This document shows, piece after piece, positions 4,028-22,332 of a DNA stretch of 64,000 nt. Position numbers and translations under genes: made by a program. Under the pieces are notes generated by a model. That model saw only the letters and a list, made by a program, of their open reading frames with translations, did no database searches and was not told where the DNA came from. The stretch comes from Deltaproteobacteria bacterium. GTDB taxonomy: Bacteria > Desulfobacterota > Desulfobulbia > Desulfobulbales > Desulfurivibrionaceae. How positions within the stretch are numbered: position 1 is the first letter of the stretch; the number at the start of each line of letters is the position of its first letter. The stretch is from contig JAPLJG010000003.1 of assembly GCA_026388735.1 (NCBI GenBank), forward strand, positions 1-64,000, read 5' to 3'.

Positions 4028-5961
4028 CCGCGTATTACCTCACCACCCCGATTTTTTACGTCAACGCCCAACCCCATCTGGGCCACGCCTATTCCACCGT
4101 GGTGGCCGATGCCGTCTGCCGGTATCAGCGGCTGCTGGGCAAGGATGTCCGCTTCCAGACCGGCACCGACGAACACGGCGACAAGATCGTCCATGCCGCC
4201 GAAGACGCTGAGGTTTCCGTCAAGGAGTACGTGGACAAGATCAGCGCCATGTTCAAGGCGGCCTGGCCGCCGCTTGCCATCGTGCCGGACACCTTTGTCC
4301 GCACCACCGACCCGGCCCACATGGCAGTGGTGCAGGGAATTCTTCAGCAAGTGTACGACCAAGGAGACATCTATTTCAGCGAGTACACCGGCCTCTACTG
4401 CAAGGGCTGCGAGCAGTTCCTCACCGAAAAAGAGCTGAAGGACGGCAAGTGCCCGGACCATCTCACCGAACCAGCCCAGATCAGCGAGCAGAATTATTTT
4501 TTCCGGATGAGCAAGTACCAGGAGTGGCTCATCGACCACATCAGCAAACACCCGGAATTCATCACCCCGGAGCGCTACCGCAACGAAGTGCTCTCCTTTC
4601 TTAAGGAACCCCTGGAGGATCTCTGCATCTCCCGGCCCACCACCCGACTCACCTGGGGCATTCCGCTGCCGTTTGACAACCGCTTTGTCACCTATGTCTG
4701 GTTCGACGCCCTGATCAACTACCTTTCCGGCCTCGACTATCCAGCAGGCCCGGATTTTGCCCGATACTGGCCCGTGGCCGAGCATGTCATCGCCAAGGAC
4801 ATCCTCAAACCCCACGCCATCTACTGGCCCACCATGCTGAAAGCCATGGGGCTTGAGCCCTACCAGCGGCTGCATGTCCACGGCTACTGGAACATGAACG
4901 AGACCAAGATGTCCAAGAGCCTCGGGAACGTGGTGCGGCCCGGCGAGCTGGTGGCGGAATTCGGCGCGGACTCGGTGCGCTACTTCCTGCTCCGCGAGAT
5001 GTCCTTTGGCTTGGACGCCGGATTTTCCAAAGAAGCCCTGATGGCCCGGCACAACTCCGACCTGACCAACGACCTGGGCAACCTGTTTTCCCGCTCGCTG
5101 ACCATGGTGAAGAACTTCGCGGCAAGCGTGGTGCCGCAGCCGGGCGTGCCCTCAGCCCAGGACCAAGAACTCGCCGAAGCCACCCTGGCCATGCTGGGCC
5201 AGTACCGCGAGCACCTGGATAATTTCGCCTTCCACCGGGCCCTGGCTGCGGTGTGGGAGGTGATCAGCCGGGCCAACAAATACATCGTCAGCACCCAGCC
5301 CTGGGAGCTGGCCAAGGACCCACAACAGGCCACCCAGCTCGGCACGGTGCTGTATACCCTGCTGGAGACGCTGAGACTCATCACCCTGACCCTGCATCCC
5401 ATCATGCCGGAAACCGCGGCCAAGATGGCCGAGGCCTTGGGCGCGGCAGGCGAGACCAGCCTCAACGACTGTGGGGTCGGGGGTCGACTCGTACCGGGCA
5501 GGGCCATCACCCCTGGGGCGCAGCTTTTCCCCCGGCTGCAACAAGAAACAAAAGACAAACCACAACCGCCCAAAAACAAAACCATGAAAGAACCAGCCAG
5601 CGAAAACACCCCCAGCCCGGAGCCCGCAGCGGAGGCCGAGGGCCTTATCAGCTTTGACGCCTTCCAGAACCTGGAACTACGGGTGGCGGAGATCGTCGCC
5701 GCCGAAAAGATCGCCAAATCCGACCGCCTCCTCAAGCTGACGGTCAAGGCCCCGGAAGAACGCACCATAGTGGCGGGCATTGCCCAGCATTACCAGCCGG
5801 AAGAGCTGGTGGGCCGCCAGGTGATCATTGTCGCCAACCTCAAACCCGCCAAATTGATGGGCGTGGCCTCCCACGGCATGGTCCTGGCCGCCAAGGACGG
5901 GGACCGCCTTGTGCTTTCCGCAGTTTCCGGCCCGGTGGCCAACGGCAGCAGGGTGGCATGA
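4024..5961 (+). CDS. metG: Methionyl-tRNA synthetase with C-terminal tRNA-binding domain
   Basis: TTPIFYVNAQPHLGHAYSTVVADA, Zn-knuckle CKGCEQF, KMSKSLGN, C-terminal LRVAEIVAAEKIAKSDRLLKLTV (Trbp111-like). Confidence 0.97.
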   Translation: MTAYYLTTPIFYVNAQPHLGHAYSTVVADAVCRYQRLLGKDVRFQTGTDEHGDKIVHAAEDAEVSVKEYVDKISAMFKAAWPPLAIVPDTFVRTTDPAHMAVVQGILQQVYDQGDIYFSEYTGLYCKGCEQFLTEKELKDGKCPDHLTEPAQISEQNYFFRMSKYQEWLIDHISKHPEFITPERYRNEVLSFLKEPLEDLCISRPTTRLTWGIPLPFDNRFVTYVWFDALINYLSGLDYPAGPDFARYWPVAEHVIAKDILKPHAIYWPTMLKAMGLEPYQRLHVHGYWNMNETKMSKSLGNVVRPGELVAEFGADSVRYFLLREMSFGLDAGFSKEALMARHNSDLTNDLGNLFSRSLTMVKNFAASVVPQPGVPSAQDQELAEATLAMLGQYREHLDNFAFHRALAAVWEVISRANKYIVSTQPWELAKDPQQATQLGTVLYTLLETLRLITLTLHPIMPETAAKMAEALGAAGETSLNDCGVGGRLVPGRAITPGAQLFPRLQQETKDKPQPPKNKTMKEPASENTPSPEPAAEAEGLISFDAFQNLELRVAEIVAAEKIAKSDRLLKLTVKAPEERTIVAGIAQHYQPEELVGRQVIIVANLKPAKLMGVASHGMVLAAKDGDRLVLSAVSGPVANGSRVA

Positions 5962-6806: not shown

Positions 6807-7565
6807 ATGACCGCGAAAACCAAGCGCTCTCCGAAAATCATCTGTATCAGCAGCGGCAAAGGCGGGGTCGGCAAGACCTCCTTTTCGGTGAACGTGGCCA
6901 CCGCCCTTTCCCAAAAAGGCAAAACCGTCCTGCTCATCGACGGCGACCTGGGGTTGGCCAACGTCGATGTGGTGCTGGGGCTTAATGTCCGCCACACCAT
7001 CCGGGAAACCATCGAAGAGGGGCGCGACCTGTCAAGCTCCCTGGTGGAGATCAACCCGAGGTTTCATGTCCTGCCGGCCAGTTCGGGCGTGCCGGAAATG
7101 GCCAACCTCTCGTACGAGGAGCAAGCCCTGCTCACCTCCAGCCTGGAAGAGATCATCGATCGCTTCGATTTTGTCCTCATCGACACTGCAGCGGGAATCG
7201 GCGATTCGGTGCTCTGGTTCAACACCTGGAGCCAGGTAAACATCGTCATCCTGACCCCGGACCCGACCTCGCTCACCGACGCCTACGCCCTGATCAAGGT
7301 GCTCCATACCCGCCACGACAGAAAGCACTTTCACCTGCTGATAAACAGTGTACAATCCAAAAAAGAAGGCCAGGATGTCTTCGCCAATATGAGCATGGTG
7401 CTGGAACGGTTCTTGAAGATCACCCCCCTGACCCTGGGTGCCATGCCCCAGGATAAAAGCGTCTCCATGGCCATCCGCCAACAGAGGCCATTTTTGTTGG
7501 GCGCACCGGAGAGTAAGGCCAGCCTGGAGATTGTCGCCGTGGCGGAGCGCATCATTAACCTGTAA
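6807..7565 (+). CDS. MinD/FlhG-like P-loop ATPase
   Basis: ICISSGKGGVGKTSFSVNVATALSQKGKTVLLIDGDLGLANVDVVLGL; FDFVLIDTAAGIGDSVLWF. Confidence 0.85.
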   Translation: MTAKTKRSPKIICISSGKGGVGKTSFSVNVATALSQKGKTVLLIDGDLGLANVDVVLGLNVRHTIRETIEEGRDLSSSLVEINPRFHVLPASSGVPEMANLSYEEQALLTSSLEEIIDRFDFVLIDTAAGIGDSVLWFNTWSQVNIVILTPDPTSLTDAYALIKVLHTRHDRKHFHLLINSVQSKKEGQDVFANMSMVLERFLKITPLTLGAMPQDKSVSMAIRQQRPFLLGAPESKASLEIVAVAERIINL

Positions 7566-7637
7566 CCTGACCGGGATTTTTGTTGAGCAACGCAATCCCC
7601 GGTTACATATTTTTTTGTTCACCAAAAGAGGACTGTT

Positions 7638-7916
7638 ATGTTTGTCATCGGTAATTTTTTAGGCGCCCTGGCCACCCCCTACATGTGGGTCATCATTGGC
7701 CGCGCCATCATTTCCTGGGTAAACGCCGACCCCTACAACCCCATCGTCCGTTTTCTCTACGAGATCACCGAACCGGCACTCTCCCGAATCCGCCGGGTGG
7801 TGCCAATTTTTGGCGGCGGGCTCGATCTTTCCCCCATGATTCTTATTCTCGCCCTGATTTTTTTACGGAGCTTTCTGGTCCCCACCTTGCAGCACCTGGC
7901 GGGAACCCTGGGATAA
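7638..7916 (+). CDS. YggT family membrane protein
   Basis: WVIIGRAIISWVNADPYNPIVRFLYEITEPALSRIRRVVPIFGGGLDLSPMILILALIFLR. Confidence 0.9.
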   Translation: MFVIGNFLGALATPYMWVIIGRAIISWVNADPYNPIVRFLYEITEPALSRIRRVVPIFGGGLDLSPMILILALIFLRSFLVPTLQHLAGTLG

Positions 7917-15923: not shown

Positions 15924-16985
15924 CTATCCTTGCCGATACAGTGGCGAATCAATATCCAGAAATTCCTCTTTTATTCTGACAAACTCCGACTCCTGCCGTA
16001 GGAAGGCCTCAACAACCTTGGGGTCGAACTGCTTGCCGCTGTTTCGCAAAATCTCCTGTTTCGCCTCCTCATGGCTCAACCCAACACTGTAGCTGCGTTT
16101 GCTGGTCATGGCGTCATAGGCGTCGACCAGCGCAACGATCCGGGCGCACAACGGAATCTTCTCGCCAGCCAGACCGTGGGGGTAGCCCTTGCCGTCCCAG
16201 CGTTCGTGATGCAACTGGGCTATCTCCTGGGCAAGAAAGAGATATTCCGATTCGGTCTGCGCGTACACCTCTTGAATCAGGCCGCCACCCACCAGGGCGT
16301 GATCTTGAAGCGAGCACACCTCCTGATGATCCAATTTTTCCGCCTTATGCAAAAGCTCCACCGAGATGCCGACCTTTCCCAAATCATGGAGCGGGCTGAC
16401 CTTAGCGATCTCTTCTGCCACGGCAATGGTGAGCCCGAGGTCAGGCAGATTGACAGCAAGATCCCTGGCAAGCACCCTGGTAAAATGATACATCCGGTCC
16501 AGATGGCTGCCGGTTTCCTTGCTCTGCAAGGCCGCAAGCTTGGTCAGAAAAAAAATCAGCTCCTCGAACTTTTCAAGCTTGAGCACCCTGAATCCGCCTG
16601 CGACCCGCAGACACAACTCCACCGGCCGCACCGGTTTTTTTAAAAAATCATCCGCGCCCAGGGAAAGCGCCTTCACCAGAGTCTCCTCATCCTCGCGATA
16701 CGTCTGGACCAGAATATAAACATAATGGAGCTGCTTTTTTCTGATCTCGGTGATGAGCGCAAAGCCGTCCATCCGCGGCATCTTCAAGTCGGTAATCACC
16801 AGCCGAATCTCAGGATCAGCGGCTAATTTCTCCAAGGCCTCCAGCCCGTCCAGCGCTTCTATCACTTCATAGCCTGCCTCACAAAGATCCTCGCGCAGCA
16901 AATGGCGTTGCAGAGCTTCATCTTCGACAATCAGAACCTTTTTGTTGTTGTTCAAGGCAAGGTTGCAGACCAGATTTGCACTCAT
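15924..16985 (-). CDS. Response regulator with HD-GYP domain
   Basis: REC: KVLIVEDEALQRHLLREDL...LVITDLKMPRMDGFALI; HD-GYP: SPLHDLGKVGI...HHERWDGKGYPHGLAGEKIPLCARIVALVDAYDAMTSKR. Confidence 0.9.
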   Translation of the reverse strand: MSANLVCNLALNNNKKVLIVEDEALQRHLLREDLCEAGYEVIEALDGLEALEKLAADPEIRLVITDLKMPRMDGFALITEIRKKQLHYVYILVQTYREDEETLVKALSLGADDFLKKPVRPVELCLRVAGGFRVLKLEKFEELIFFLTKLAALQSKETGSHLDRMYHFTRVLARDLAVNLPDLGLTIAVAEEIAKVSPLHDLGKVGISVELLHKAEKLDHQEVCSLQDHALVGGGLIQEVYAQTESEYLFLAQEIAQLHHERWDGKGYPHGLAGEKIPLCARIVALVDAYDAMTSKRSYSVGLSHEEAKQEILRNSGKQFDPKVVEAFLRQESEFVRIKEEFLDIDSPLYRQG

Positions 16986-17128
16986 AATTCTCCCCTGTGG
17001 CTTTCCCAAAAACAGACGTTTTCACATTGTAGGATATCCATTCCCAAAAACGCAATCATTGATTCTTGCTCGCAACCGCTCAACTCCGGCTCAAGCACGC
17101 ATCCTTCGCCGCCGTTGACCGAACAAAA

Positions 17129-17167
17129 AAAGAGGGTCGCATCCGAAAACCGGATGCGACCCTCTTT
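17129..17167 (-). terminator. Rho-independent terminator for the cytochrome gene
   Basis: Perfect stem AAAGAGGGTCGCATCCG / CGGATGCGACCCTCTTT with 5-nt loop; on the minus strand followed by a T run (CTCTTTTTTTG). Confidence 0.85.
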
Positions 17168-17205
17168 CATTACTCCGCGACAGGACTGCTTACTGATTTT
17201 GCCGC

Positions 17206-19080
17206 TTAGAACTTATGGCACTTGATACAAGCGTACTTCTCAACGTGCTCGTTATGCACCTCCTGTGAGCTTGCCGTCTTCAGACTATGACAACTCTTGC
17301 ACAGAGTGGAGGTTGCGCTGACCAGACCAACCGGAGCAGTGGTGTGACACGCGGAGCATGCGAACTTGGAGCGATGCTTGTCGTGTATCCCTTCCCAGTT
17401 CAAGGTTTCCTTGCTGTGGCACATGGTGCAGCCCTTCACCGAGGCAGGCATGGTGTGGTAGCCCAAGGCGGTGAACGGAACCATCAGGTTGTTGTGACCG
17501 GTCATGGTACCATGACATTCGGCACATTTCGGGGCCATGGTCTTTGGCTCTACCCCATGGGTGATCAGCATTTCCGCCTTAACCGGAACCATGGTGTAGC
17601 TGCCGGTCATACCCTGATCCTGCATGCCCTTTGCCACAGCCTGTTTGAAATCGCCGGTCATAAACATCCACATGATCACGGGCGGAACAATCCGACCGTC
17701 TGCCAGGATAGGCAGGGCTGAGGTGTGGACCCTGATGGGTACGATCTTGGACTTGCCATCGAAGATCTTGCCGTTTGCCTTGGCCATGGTATAGGTACCG
17801 TCGGCGTTTTTGCTGATCTTCTCGCCGACATTGTACACGTAGGAGGTACCATCAAAGAAGCGGTACTCCGGTTTTTGGTTGGCCGCCTTGACCTCCTCGC
17901 CGACATAACCGCCCTGACCGTTACAGAAGGTCGGATTCCAAACCGGCTTGCTCCAATCGCGGGAGATCTCGGTGGCGCCGCCCTTGGCATAGGTCTTGAT
18001 ATGGCAGGTCTGACATCCTACCTGGCCTGCGGCATGGCGGTTCAGCTTGGCGTAGTTTGCAGTGGTGGTTTTATGCGGTGCAGCACCGTGACAATCCTGA
18101 CATTTCGGATCAACCGCCTCGGTCTCGCGCAGATCAATCCCGCGGCCGCCGATCTTATGCTTGCTGGTAGTATGACACGCGGCACAGCTCAGGTTGCCGC
18201 GGGTCGGGGACATATGTACGTCCTGAGCATCGGTGGGAGCCGCAGTATTGACGCCCATGTCGCCACGTTTGGCCCAGTCGGAACCAGCAGCCTTGGCATG
18301 GCAGCGCAGACAGGAATTCCGGGTGGGTTTGTGTACAGTGCGGGCCAGATTAACCATGGTGGTGCCAGCAGGCATCAACGCGTAATCAGGCTCGGTGAAG
18401 TAGTTGCCCTGCGCGTCACGCAGACCAAAAATATAGGTCTTAGCCTTACCAAGGTAGTCGGTTACAGTCATGGCCGTGGACGGATCAGCCGTTGTTTTCC
18501 GCTTGTAGGTATCGTTATGGCACATCAGACAATCCACATCATTCACAGAAGGCGAATGCGGGGCATTGCCGTCGGCCCGGACATGGCAGTTGAAGCAGGC
18601 GCCGCCGGAGGACATGGCATAGGTGCAGAAGGTGTTAATGCCCTTCACACCCTTGCCCAGCGACTGGCCTGGGGCGTTGCTCAACTCCGAAGCAGTGCCT
18701 TTCCATTGCATGTGCAGGCTGTTGAGCATGTCCGTGGCCTGGGTCGGATGGCAGGCAATACAGGTGGACGGCCCATTGTAAGCTGTGATGCCAGCGTGGG
18801 CGGCTGCCGCACTGGTGCTGGTTGTCGGCGGCGTGGTGGTTGTGGTCCCACCACAGGTCTTGCCGGTTTTGTATAGGGTGACCGCATCGTACACTGCGGT
18901 GGTCACCCTGCTGCCATTGTGCGCCGTCCATTTGCTGTTGGTGCAGCTCACACTGGAGCTCTTGTCCGAATGGCATTTCAGGCAGGTCGTTTTCAGCTCC
19001 GTCGCCGCGTCGATGGTGGCCGCATGAGCTCCCCCGGCCAGCAACGTGACCGCAGTCGTAAGAAATAAAATCTTTCGCAT
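17206..19080 (-). CDS. 13-haem c-type cytochrome, octahaem tetrathionate reductase (OTR)-like core
   Basis: Signal peptide MRKILFLTTAVTLLAGGAHA; 13 CXXCH motifs counted (CLKCH, CIACH, CFNCH, CLMCH, CLRCH, CAACH, CQDCH, CQTCH, CAECH, CTMCH, CSACH, CKSCH, CIKCH); RBS AAGGAG upstream. Confidence 0.9.
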   Translation of the reverse strand: MRKILFLTTAVTLLAGGAHAATIDAATELKTTCLKCHSDKSSSVSCTNSKWTAHNGSRVTTAVYDAVTLYKTGKTCGGTTTTTPPTTSTSAAAAHAGITAYNGPSTCIACHPTQATDMLNSLHMQWKGTASELSNAPGQSLGKGVKGINTFCTYAMSSGGACFNCHVRADGNAPHSPSVNDVDCLMCHNDTYKRKTTADPSTAMTVTDYLGKAKTYIFGLRDAQGNYFTEPDYALMPAGTTMVNLARTVHKPTRNSCLRCHAKAAGSDWAKRGDMGVNTAAPTDAQDVHMSPTRGNLSCAACHTTSKHKIGGRGIDLRETEAVDPKCQDCHGAAPHKTTTANYAKLNRHAAGQVGCQTCHIKTYAKGGATEISRDWSKPVWNPTFCNGQGGYVGEEVKAANQKPEYRFFDGTSYVYNVGEKISKNADGTYTMAKANGKIFDGKSKIVPIRVHTSALPILADGRIVPPVIMWMFMTGDFKQAVAKGMQDQGMTGSYTMVPVKAEMLITHGVEPKTMAPKCAECHGTMTGHNNLMVPFTALGYHTMPASVKGCTMCHSKETLNWEGIHDKHRSKFACSACHTTAPVGLVSATSTLCKSCHSLKTASSQEVHNEHVEKYACIKCHKF

Positions 19081-19190
19081 GTATGGTTCTCCTTTTTTAC
19101 AGCAACATTTTTCTATTCTCGATAGTGCCCCACATCCTGTAATCATAGGGATGCAGATTCCCGACATCAACTCACAATAGGTTTCTACTT

Positions 19191-19206
19191 AGCAAGAGGT
19201 ATGCCA
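19191..19206 (-). promoter_or_regulatory. Sigma-54 (-24/-12) promoter for the multihaem cytochrome
   Basis: Minus strand TGGCAT-ACCTC-TTGCT, close to consensus TGGCACrNNNNTTGCW, about 110 bp upstream of the cytochrome ATG and directly downstream of a sigma-54 activator gene. Confidence 0.75.
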
Positions 19207-19224
19207 GGGACGCCGAAAAGAATT

Positions 19225-20781
19225 TCAGCGGGCGGGAGAGCGACGACGACGCGGCAGAGAAATATTCAGCCGCCGGAGACGGGAGACAAAGGTGGAGCGG
19301 TTGACCTGGGCGGCCTCTGCGGCCCAGGTCAGGTTCATGCTGTGCTGCTCGAGAAGATAGGCTAAATACTCGCGCTCGACCTCCTCCCAGGTGCGGGGGC
19401 CAAAATCCACCCCCCCAGCCAGGTGCACCGGTGTGGCCTGTGCCTGCGGGACTTCCTCCGTCTGTGCCGCCGGGGCCAAGGCCCGATAGGCCGGCGGCAG
19501 ATCGAGGCGGCCAATCTCTTCCTGGCGGCAGACCACGGTGAGATACTTGGCCAGGTTTTCCAGCTCCCGAATATTTCCTGGCCACGGGTAGGCAAACAGC
19601 AACGCCAGCACCTCGCGGTCCGGCTGCTTCGGCAAAACCCCGTTTTGAGCCGCCTCCCGCAGGAGAAAAAGATTGAACAGCAGCGGAATATCCTCAGGCC
19701 GATTGCGCAGGGGCGGCAATGCTATGGGCAGGACCGAGAGACGGTAAAAAAGGTCGCGGCGAAATGTTTTTTCCGCCACCTTTCGTTCCAGGTCTCGGTT
19801 CGTGGCCGCCACAAGACGGACATCGACCTGCTTCGTCTTTGTGCTGCCGAGCGGCTTGATCTCGTTGTTTTGGATCACCCGCAGCACCTTGGCCTGGAGT
19901 TCGATAGGCATGTCGCCGATCTCATCCAGAAAGAGAGTGCCGCCGTCGGCCGCCTCGAAAAGCCCCATCTTGTCCTTGACCGCGCCGGAAAAAGCGCCCT
20001 TTTTATAGCCAAACAACTCACTTTCCAGCAATGTTTCCGGGATGGCGCTGCAGTTTTGCACCACCAGGGGCTGGTCGCGGCGAGGACTCAGCCGATGCAG
20101 ACGGGTGGCCACCAATTCCTTGCCGGTTCCTGATTCGCCGGTGATGAGCACCGGGTAATTGGTGGCCGCGTAGCTGTCAACCTTCTCTATCACCTGTTGG
20201 AAAGCCACACTCTGGCCCACTACCAGGCCATCTTCTTTGAGAGCCGCCAGTTCGCTCTGGAGCAGACGGCTGACCTCCACCTGACGCTCGTACTCCAAGG
20301 CATTGGAAAGAGCCACGGAGCCGATATTCACCAGCTCTTGCAGAAAATCGAGATACTCCTTTTCCAGGTTGAGCTTGGAGTGTTCTGGGTTGGTGTCGAT
20401 GACCTCCACCGCCCCGTACACCCTCCCGCCTTTCAACAATAGAGGGAAAGCAAGGATGAGGCTGCTCTTGATACTGAGATCCGCCTCAATGGGTTGGAAA
20501 TGACGCGAGTCGCCATCTGGCCGCGAAAGGACCATTTTCCCCGTTTCAATCACCAAGCGCACCAGGCTCTTGGTCGCAAGCGGCAGACACCGCCCCTTCA
20601 CCTTCTCGCTTTCGATTCCCTCTGCCTCAAGACAACAGAACCCCTCCTCCTCCCGAATCCAGACGGAGCCACGATCCACGTTCTGTAGCCGAAGCAGAGC
20701 CCGCAAAAACTTGCGTTGCAGTGCCTGCGGGTCCAATTCGTCGGAAAAGGATTTGAAGAGTTCGATCAATGATTCTTTCAT
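19225..20781 (-). CDS. Sigma-54-dependent transcriptional activator (GAF + AAA+ + Fis-type HTH)
   Basis: GAF-like N-terminus; AAA+: VLITGESGTGKELVATRLHRLSPR, ESELFGYKKGAFSGAVKDKMGLFEAADGGTLFLDEIGDMP, YPWPGNIRELENL; C-terminal HTH. Confidence 0.93.
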   Translation of the reverse strand: MKESLIELFKSFSDELDPQALQRKFLRALLRLQNVDRGSVWIREEEGFCCLEAEGIESEKVKGRCLPLATKSLVRLVIETGKMVLSRPDGDSRHFQPIEADLSIKSSLILAFPLLLKGGRVYGAVEVIDTNPEHSKLNLEKEYLDFLQELVNIGSVALSNALEYERQVEVSRLLQSELAALKEDGLVVGQSVAFQQVIEKVDSYAATNYPVLITGESGTGKELVATRLHRLSPRRDQPLVVQNCSAIPETLLESELFGYKKGAFSGAVKDKMGLFEAADGGTLFLDEIGDMPIELQAKVLRVIQNNEIKPLGSTKTKQVDVRLVAATNRDLERKVAEKTFRRDLFYRLSVLPIALPPLRNRPEDIPLLFNLFLLREAAQNGVLPKQPDREVLALLFAYPWPGNIRELENLAKYLTVVCRQEEIGRLDLPPAYRALAPAAQTEEVPQAQATPVHLAGGVDFGPRTWEEVEREYLAYLLEQHSMNLTWAAEAAQVNRSTFVSRLRRLNISLPRRRRSPAR

Positions 20782-20851
20782 GCTGGCAACATAGCACTTT
20801 TTAGTTGAAATATAACTACATATAATTAAATATAATCAGTATACTCGTTTT

Positions 20852-20896
20852 TTTGGCAAAAAAAGGCCGGGGCAGCAGTGATGCTGCCCCGGCCTT
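20852..20896 (-). terminator. Rho-independent terminator
   Basis: AAGGCCGGGGCAGCA-GTGA-TGCTGCCCCGGCCTT stem (20863-20896); T-rich tail on the minus strand. Confidence 0.85.
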
Positions 20897-20922
20897 GCGT
20901 TTCGGACCGTAACGCACAAAAA

Positions 20923-22332
20923 TTACTCGACTTTTGCCACTTCCCGCCCTTCCCTAAGATCCTTCCCCTCAATATAGCGCCGAATCGATTCAGCCGCCTC
21001 CTTGGCTTGGAACACCGCCTTGGCCACGGTCTGGGGCCCCAGCACCGCGTCGCCCGCGGCAAAAACCCAGTCCACCGAGGTCTGCATGGTGATCTCGTCC
21101 ACCACATAGGTGCCCCAGCGGGTCATGGTGAAATCGAGCCCGGAACCGGCGGTGGGATCCACATCCTGGCTGATGGCTGGGATGACAGCGTCCGCCTCGA
21201 TCATGAAGTTAGAGCCCTCGACCACCTCCGGTCGACAGCGGCCCGAGGCGTCACACTCCCCGAGCTTCATCCGCAGGCATTCTATCTTGGTCAGCCGTCC
21301 GCCCTCGCCGTGGATCTTCACCGGGGCGGCCAGCATCTCGATGCGTACGCCCTCCTCTTCCAGATGATGGATCTCGGCCTGGGCTGCCGGCATCTCCACT
21401 TTTGTCCGGCGGTAGAGAATAAAAACCTGATCCGAACCGGTACGGAGTGCAGTGCGGGCACAGTCAATAGCCACGTTGCCGCCGCCCACCACCACCACAT
21501 TGCGGCCGAGGTTAAGCTTCTCGCCAATATTGACCCGGCGAAGATAATCGACCCCATGGAGTACGCCCGCAAGCTCCTCGCCCTCAACGCCCAGCTTGCG
21601 GCTGGCATGCGCCCCAGGCCCAAGAAAAATTGCGGCAAAGCCCTCGTTCTTCAAGTCCTGTAGGCTTTTATCCTTGCCAATGGTGAGGTTGTTGACCATG
21701 GTGACCCCGCAGTTGCGCAGGGCATCGAATTCCGCCTCAATGATCTGCCTCGGCAGACGGTAGGCAGGGATGCCCACCGCCAGCATACCGCCCGAAACCG
21801 GCAGGCTCTCGAAGATGGTGCAGTGATACCCGAGATGAGCCAGGTAATATGCCACCGACATCCCGGCCGGGCCGGAACCGACAATGGCCACCTTTTTATC
21901 CTTGGGCAATGCGCAGGTCTGGAGCAGGTTCTTGTTGTTGGCCACCATCCAGTCAACGATGTAGCGCTCGAGCATGCCAATGGCCACCGGCTCGCCGTTT
22001 TTCCCCCGGATGCAGTGCCCCTCGCACTGAAACTCATGGGGGCAAACCCGCGAACAGATGGCAGGCAGCGAATTGGTCTCGCGATCCAGCCAGTACGCCT
22101 CCTCGATCTTGCCTTCCCGCAACAGCTTAATAAATCCGGGGATATCGTTGTGGACGGGGCAGGCCTCCCGACATTTTGGTTTTTTGCATTGCAGGCACCG
22201 CTCCGCCTCAAGCTGGGCAGCCTCAGCCTCATAGCCGGAAACAACCTCGTCAAAATTCGTGATCCGCCCGGCAACGGGCAATTCCCGTGAAAATTGACGG
22301 GAAATGTTCATCCTTTCTTTTGCCTCCATCAC
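20923..22332 (-). CDS. NADPH-dependent glutamate synthase small-subunit-like oxidoreductase (GltA/GltD/NfnB family)
   Basis: CLQCKKPKCREACPVHNDIPGFI, VAIVGSGPAGMSVAYYLAHLGYHCTIFE, NVVVVGGGNVAIDCARTALR, VFAAGDAVLGPQTV. Confidence 0.9.
   Translation of the reverse strand: MMEAKERMNISRQFSRELPVAGRITNFDEVVSGYEAEAAQLEAERCLQCKKPKCREACPVHNDIPGFIKLLREGKIEEAYWLDRETNSLPAICSRVCPHEFQCEGHCIRGKNGEPVAIGMLERYIVDWMVANNKNLLQTCALPKDKKVAIVGSGPAGMSVAYYLAHLGYHCTIFESLPVSGGMLAVGIPAYRLPRQIIEAEFDALRNCGVTMVNNLTIGKDKSLQDLKNEGFAAIFLGPGAHASRKLGVEGEELAGVLHGVDYLRRVNIGEKLNLGRNVVVVGGGNVAIDCARTALRTGSDQVFILYRRTKVEMPAAQAEIHHLEEEGVRIEMLAAPVKIHGEGGRLTKIECLRMKLGECDASGRCRPEVVEGSNFMIEADAVIPAISQDVDPTAGSGLDFTMTRWGTYVVDEITMQTSVDWVFAAGDAVLGPQTVAKAVFQAKEAAESIRRYIEGKDLREGREVAKVE

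Follow-up and report, generated by a model that had tools for sequence, protein, structure and literature searches.

The main feature of the locus, which comes from a sediment-type member of the Desulfobulbales, is a gene for a multihaem cytochrome (17206 to 19080, minus strand) within the window, by which we mean the whole stretch of 64,000 nucleotides analysed here. Its open frame spans 624 codons and a stop codon, with its ATG at 19080 and a GGAG just upstream. The encoded 624-aa protein begins with a Sec-type signal, MRKILFLTTAVTLLAGGAHA (residues 1-20, boundary AHA/A), and the earlier claim of a secreted redox protein is supported. Thirteen CXXCH motifs had been claimed, and all of them lie in this one frame, starting at residues 33, 107, 162, 184, 257, 299, 327, 356, 519, 551, 575, 594, and 618. 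Since it is the only frame with at least two CXXCH motifs in the 64-kb window, their number is not due to chance. The motifs follow a 1 + 8 + 4 layout: one N-terminal haem, an octahaem core, and a C-terminal tail. The sequence-only reading had noticed the C-terminal haems, and we could refine them to exactly four (haem motifs 10-13, within residues 545-624; tail at 17209 to 17463, minus strand). The protein has about 4.8-5.0 kDa of mass per haem. No outer-membrane anchor and no lipobox were seen in its sequence, and the RNA elements sought around the locus were not found.

At the core, residues 95-540 (haem motifs 2-9; 17512 to 18798, minus strand) aligned with octahaem tetrathionate reductase (OTR), with E 3.9e-69 for TIGR04315 and E 5.7e-44 for PDB 1sp3 using phmmer. 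Foldseek on the AlphaFold model, which is of moderate quality (pLDDT 64, pTM 0.63), retrieved 1sp3 as the only significant PDB match (E 1.5e-21, TM by target 0.64), and the OTR-like core proposed earlier holds. The TIGR04315 score of 233.8 bits is below the curated cut-off of 375, and thus the protein is not a strict member of this subfamily. It presents the octahaem core with the 1sp3 fold of the wider OTR superfamily, by phmmer and by Foldseek on a model of moderate confidence, and departs from the exactly eight haems of that superfamily, with 13 CXXCH motifs here and 12 in the relatives.

The distal ligand of the OTR active-site haem is reportedly Lys153, as given in the OTR structure paper. 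In our protein, K271 faces chain position 153 of 1sp3 (counted along the alignment), which we take to be this same distal lysine. K271 is invariant in a 40-member alignment, 10-haem cousins included. Lysine versus histidine had been left as an alternative for the active site, and at the sequence level the residue is lysine. With this catalytic-type lysine kept, the core looks like an enzyme and not merely a conductor. In OTR, haem II is the catalytic haem, and nitrite, hydroxylamine, and tetrathionate are reduced in vitro (PMC4484225). The same genome encodes a separate plain 8-haem OTR (TIGR04315 607.4 bits, above the cut-off) and a classical NrfA; since NrfA is already there, a nitrite role for the 13-haem protein is weakened and not forced.

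The N-terminal haem sits in a 57-residue module, or bead, within residues 21-78 (18847 to 19017, minus strand), small and basic (pI 8.8), and joined to the core by the Thr/Pro/Ala linker GGTTTTTPPTTSTSAAAAH (residues 77-95; 18796 to 18852, minus strand). The claim of an extra N-terminal haem on such a linker proved real, and it recurs in one or two copies in two other congener genomes. The CLKCH motif had been proposed as a separate haem module; it is one, and it has two further cysteines and one further histidine of its own. The bead, defined by profile match and a 20-member alignment, contains CLKCH33, Cys46, Trp51, His54 as the candidate distal ligand, and Cys76. Only the CXXCH and a single Trp, His, Gly, and Cys are invariant across the 20 members, and the second Cys is nearly so. 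As the one extra histidine is invariant, the bead haem is likely bis-His ligated. The AlphaFold model has pLDDT < 50 in the bead region, and a stand-alone single-sequence model of the bead (pLDDT 64) found no fold match, was uninformative, and was left unused; conservation is therefore what speaks for the fold and ligation of the bead.

Profile searches detected the bead in seven of the 258 genomes of the order and in 9/395 sampled genomes of the phylum (the class-level search used the same sample as the order-level one and adds nothing to it). On the 12-haem body, it is present as one copy in the source genome, one in G006, and two in tandem in G005, whose orthologue thus reaches 14 haems, with Thr/Pro linkers that include one of about 20 residues between the beads. 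Among these congeners, bead identity is 85-91%. The module matched no Pfam domain above cut-off, and the region was also uncovered in whole-protein scans; its profile found no sequence relative in the PDB.

The bead is also carried by unrelated cytochromes. Six 'NDLGMHC' multihaem cytochromes (L052, L053, L091, L092, L093, and L098) have one to three beads, mostly C-terminal, on Gly/Thr/Ser linkers, and two large cytochromes (L054 and L055) end in more divergent copies. The bead is thus a rare and apparently undescribed module recurring in unrelated cytochromes, and this recurrence suggests that movable haem domains are added by bacteria to give redox enzymes a longer reach.

The 'NDLGMHC' cytochrome L052 (6345-8672) bears three near-identical tethered beads at its C-terminus. 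L094 (6172-8283) and L095 (7196-8743) combine one or more class-I-type haem domains, Ca-binding-type repeats, and a C-terminal bead, a PgcA-like design made of other parts; the class-I haem domain of one of the two weakly matches PgcA domain I (E 0.012). In the 31-haem cytochromes L096 (6258-9566) and L097 (7261-10554), a divergent bead lies internally and two discoidin (F5/8 type C) domains stand at the C-terminus.

The architecture had been suggested to be undescribed. No described family with the 13-haem layout was found in the libraries and open-access literature searched; however, the 8+4 body is widespread, and only the bead is special to the genus. A scan of GTDB genomes retrieved 55 loci with this body, from Desulfobulbaceae, Desulfocapsaceae, Desulfobacteraceae, Nitrospirota, and some metagenome genomes labelled otherwise, and the cultured hosts include Desulfopila aestuarii, Desulfospira joergensenii, Desulfoprunum benzoelyticum, and Desulfobulbus sp. 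Tol-SR. All intact members keep the 12 haem motifs, including the four-haem tail, and cousins with 10 haems (8+2) also occur. The N-terminus of the family is a swap site: it can be bare, or carry a domain that reads as Ig-like from its sequence, MopE-type metal-binding repeats (PF11617 in the relative L136), or the monohaem bead, the latter in the source genus only among the members seen. As most family members lack the bead, it is not needed for the function of the core. A 12-haem OTR-like family, widespread and unannotated, is thereby defined in sediment and sulfur-cycling bacteria, and sigma-54 control appears to be frequent in it.

One 16-haem relative (L045 8734-10779 / L111 8950-10995) carries two additional copies of its last dihaem unit on Thr/Pro linkers, which makes it a second and independent example of tethered beads within the 8+4 family. 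Two 12-haem paralogues lie in tandem on another contig of the source genome. Such OTR-like 12-haem genes form tandem arrays, two or three genes long, in L034 (G000:C44; 10339-13911) and also in L039, L041, L043, and L038; G005 has a broken array copy, with a truncated 7-haem frame and a stranded tail fragment beside it (L039 7624-9003, about 7514-7687). In several genomes of the genus, the arrays are flanked by an ammonium transporter gene (AmtB) on one side and by a split glutamate-synthase-like set of three genes on the other, which hints at a connection with ammonium metabolism. Within the genus, only the tandem array has such neighbours, and for the 12-haem family no conserved operon partners were found beyond generic regulators, so the gene neighbourhood gave no lead on function.

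Comparison with the G005 orthologue in 45-column bins gave a core 87-100% identical, whereas the last two bins, corresponding to the four-haem tail, fell to 60%. At the DNA level, identity was 60-72% in the tail and came back up to 73-100% beyond it. The closest tails to that of the source-genome protein were those of G006 and G004, and the G005 tail was closest to the tandem-array type. On these grounds, recombination most likely exchanged the tail as a block. Together with the gain and duplication of the bead, this indicates that both ends are replaceable while the core is kept. In the tree, the bead-bearing proteins all fall in one 7-row clade and do not form a single clade inside it, so the bead has been lost, gained, or recombined more than once.

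The cytochrome gene is part of a two-gene insertion of about 3.9 kb (approximately 17066 to 20944, minus strand), which contains an activator and the cytochrome and is missing at the corresponding position in congeners; homology to their empty-site DNA stops at about 20944 and restarts at about 17065. The conserved edges are a gltA-like gene (20923 to 22332) and a response-regulator (RR)/HD-GYP gene (15924 to 17009), both on the minus strand. The block atpD-atpC-cheC-gltA-(RR)-amiC-mutS is conserved in nine congeners where contigs allow, and in the empty sites gltA directly adjoins the RR gene or amiC. In this nine-congener comparison, the activator and the bead-bearing cytochrome are inserted only in the source genome and G005. 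G006, G010, and G014 lack the RR gene beside gltA, which there directly adjoins amiC (L197 (G006:C2), about 5316-5500; L195; L198).

The activator gene (19225 to 20781, minus strand) encodes GAF and sigma-54 activation domains (GAF-AAA). It is NorR-like and scored below the curated cut-off for NorR (NF003451, 340.1 bits against 476), so the assignment as NorR was rejected. Of seven genomes searched, the activator was found in the two with the inserted cytochrome and in no other. The 144-nt gap between both genes contains a sigma-54 promoter, TGGCATACCTCTTGCT (19191 to 19206, minus strand), 126 nt upstream of the ATG, with 10/11 consensus bases, and G005 presents a perfect 11/11 site, TGGCACATCTCTTGCT, at the equivalent place.

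Sites of this type with at least 10/11 bases precede 25 of the 56 family genes (source gene included) against 5/316 control upstreams from the same loci, with a Fisher p about 1e-18 that is indicative only, as related sequences are not independent and starts were set by a simple rule. In the whole genome, TGGCAYN5TTGCW occurs 20 times vs. two for the reversed control; of these 20 sites, two lie ahead of OTR-family genes and one ahead of a decahaem-MtrB-type porin pair. MtrB/PioB porins are encoded twice in this genome, once behind a decahaem gene that has a sigma-54 site upstream. At L166 (G000:C58; 5960-9273), a decahaem cytochrome and an MtrB/PioB porin lie behind a consensus sigma-54 site, apparently an outer-membrane electron conduit under sigma-54 control.

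Our preferred reading, with a probability of roughly 55%, is a secreted modular OTR-type reductase with swappable haem modules, in which the bead serves as a tethered electron shuttle; its haem loading, substrate, direction of electron flow, and cell location are what we infer here. The adjacent activator would turn the gene on under a particular signal. Electrons would enter or leave through the four-haem tail and then pass to the Lys271 haem, where a small acceptor would be reduced. The bis-His bead would swing a few nanometres on its tether; at about 3.4 Å per residue, the 18-residue leash would reach at most about 6 nm at full stretch. By analogy with PgcA, the bead may exchange electrons with a partner that the packed haem chain cannot reach, whether a second cytochrome, a conduit of the MtrAB type, or a surface. 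The sequence-only reading had pictured a 'haem wire', and for the N-terminal haem this is the wrong picture: on a flexible tether, a bead is mobile, as those of PgcA are, and not part of a fixed chain. In PgcA, electron exchange proceeds by tethered diffusion of haem domains held on (PT)n leashes, with a stretch of up to 18 nm, and a 2024 paper introduced this protein as the first member of a class with tethered, mobile haems in place of packed ones (PMC11520253).

A less probable explanation, although the strongest of the rivals, is a pure conduit: a periplasmic or extracellular terminal cytochrome for minerals, humics, or partner cells, whose OTR core would have lost small-molecule catalysis and whose bead would contact a solid or a nanowire. 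At their N-terminus, many relatives bear modules typical of exported proteins, either Ig-like or of the metal-binding MopE type; the other bead hosts are large multihaem cytochromes, and the same genome has MtrAB conduits. There is also a precedent in MmcA, an OTR-related protein that serves as an electron conduit and for which loss of catalysis has been proposed (PMC11024163), and the mass per haem given above is near the 'peptide-minimised' range (PMC7096707). However, a mere conductor would not need the active-site lysine that is invariant in 40 sequences, and no gene for an extracellular electron transfer conduit adjoins the 13-haem cytochrome.

The protein could also be an ordinary 8+4 cytochrome of the OTR family that gained the bead by fusion as a nearly neutral passenger. 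Most relatives do without it, it was apparently gained or lost within one genus, and there is none in the G004 relative that falls together with the bead-bearing protein of G006. We consider this improbable: the bead is kept in three genomes at 85-91% identity, with its CXXCH, Trp, and His conserved, it is duplicated in one of the three, and it is reused with tethers in several unrelated cytochromes. Least credible is a bead that acts as a docking or surface-binding tag (for mineral, sheath, or partner cytochrome) more than as a redox relay, with a structural haem. In its favour, the bis-His domain III is the only PgcA domain to bind iron oxide (PMC11520253), the bead is small and basic, and one class of bead hosts carries discoidin domains; against it, the bead has no sequence homology to the PgcA domains.

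Beyond the tethered-shuttle reductase itself, we advance a broader idea more tentatively. The 57-residue bis-His bead may be a new mobile monohaem domain, attached singly or in tandem on flexible tethers to unrelated multihaem proteins, that extends their electron-transfer reach by tethered diffusion; our protein would then be the first catalytic reductase with such beads, and it would bring along its own sigma-54 switch. The close relatives with zero, one, or two beads form a natural series, in which what a tethered haem adds to an enzyme is directly testable.

Among the closest known systems are the unannotated 12-haem OTR-like cytochromes of Desulfobulbales, Desulfobacterales, and Nitrospirota, which share the body, 12 CXXCH motifs, the lysine, and, in many, sigma-54 promoters; their N-terminus is bare, or probably Ig-like or MopE-type, whereas the 13-haem protein has the bead. 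Shewanella oneidensis OTR (1sp3, TIGR04315 octaheme_Shew) has in common the eight-haem core, its fold, the Lys153-equivalent lysine, and the Cytochrome_cB domain (PF11783), to which our protein adds the fused four-haem tail and the tethered bead. MmcA of Methanosarcina acetivorans is likewise an OTR-related multihaem protein and acts as an electron conduit, but it is archaeal, has seven haems, and lacks both tail and bead. Finally, PgcA of Geobacter sulfurreducens shares monohaem domains on Thr/Pro-rich linkers, of the flexible type seen here at residues 77-95 and between the G005 beads, and tethered-diffusion transfer, which we propose for the bead. However, PgcA consists of three monohaem domains only, and here the bead is joined to a 12-haem enzyme-like body. 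Even with E values of up to 10 allowed, the bead profile retrieved none of the PgcA structures, the CXXCH histidine lies 17 residues from the candidate distal histidine (32 in PgcA domain III), and the bead has two extra cysteines. Thus, this is an unrelated haem bead, different from those of PgcA, reused on several kinds of cytochrome and here on an enzyme-like body.
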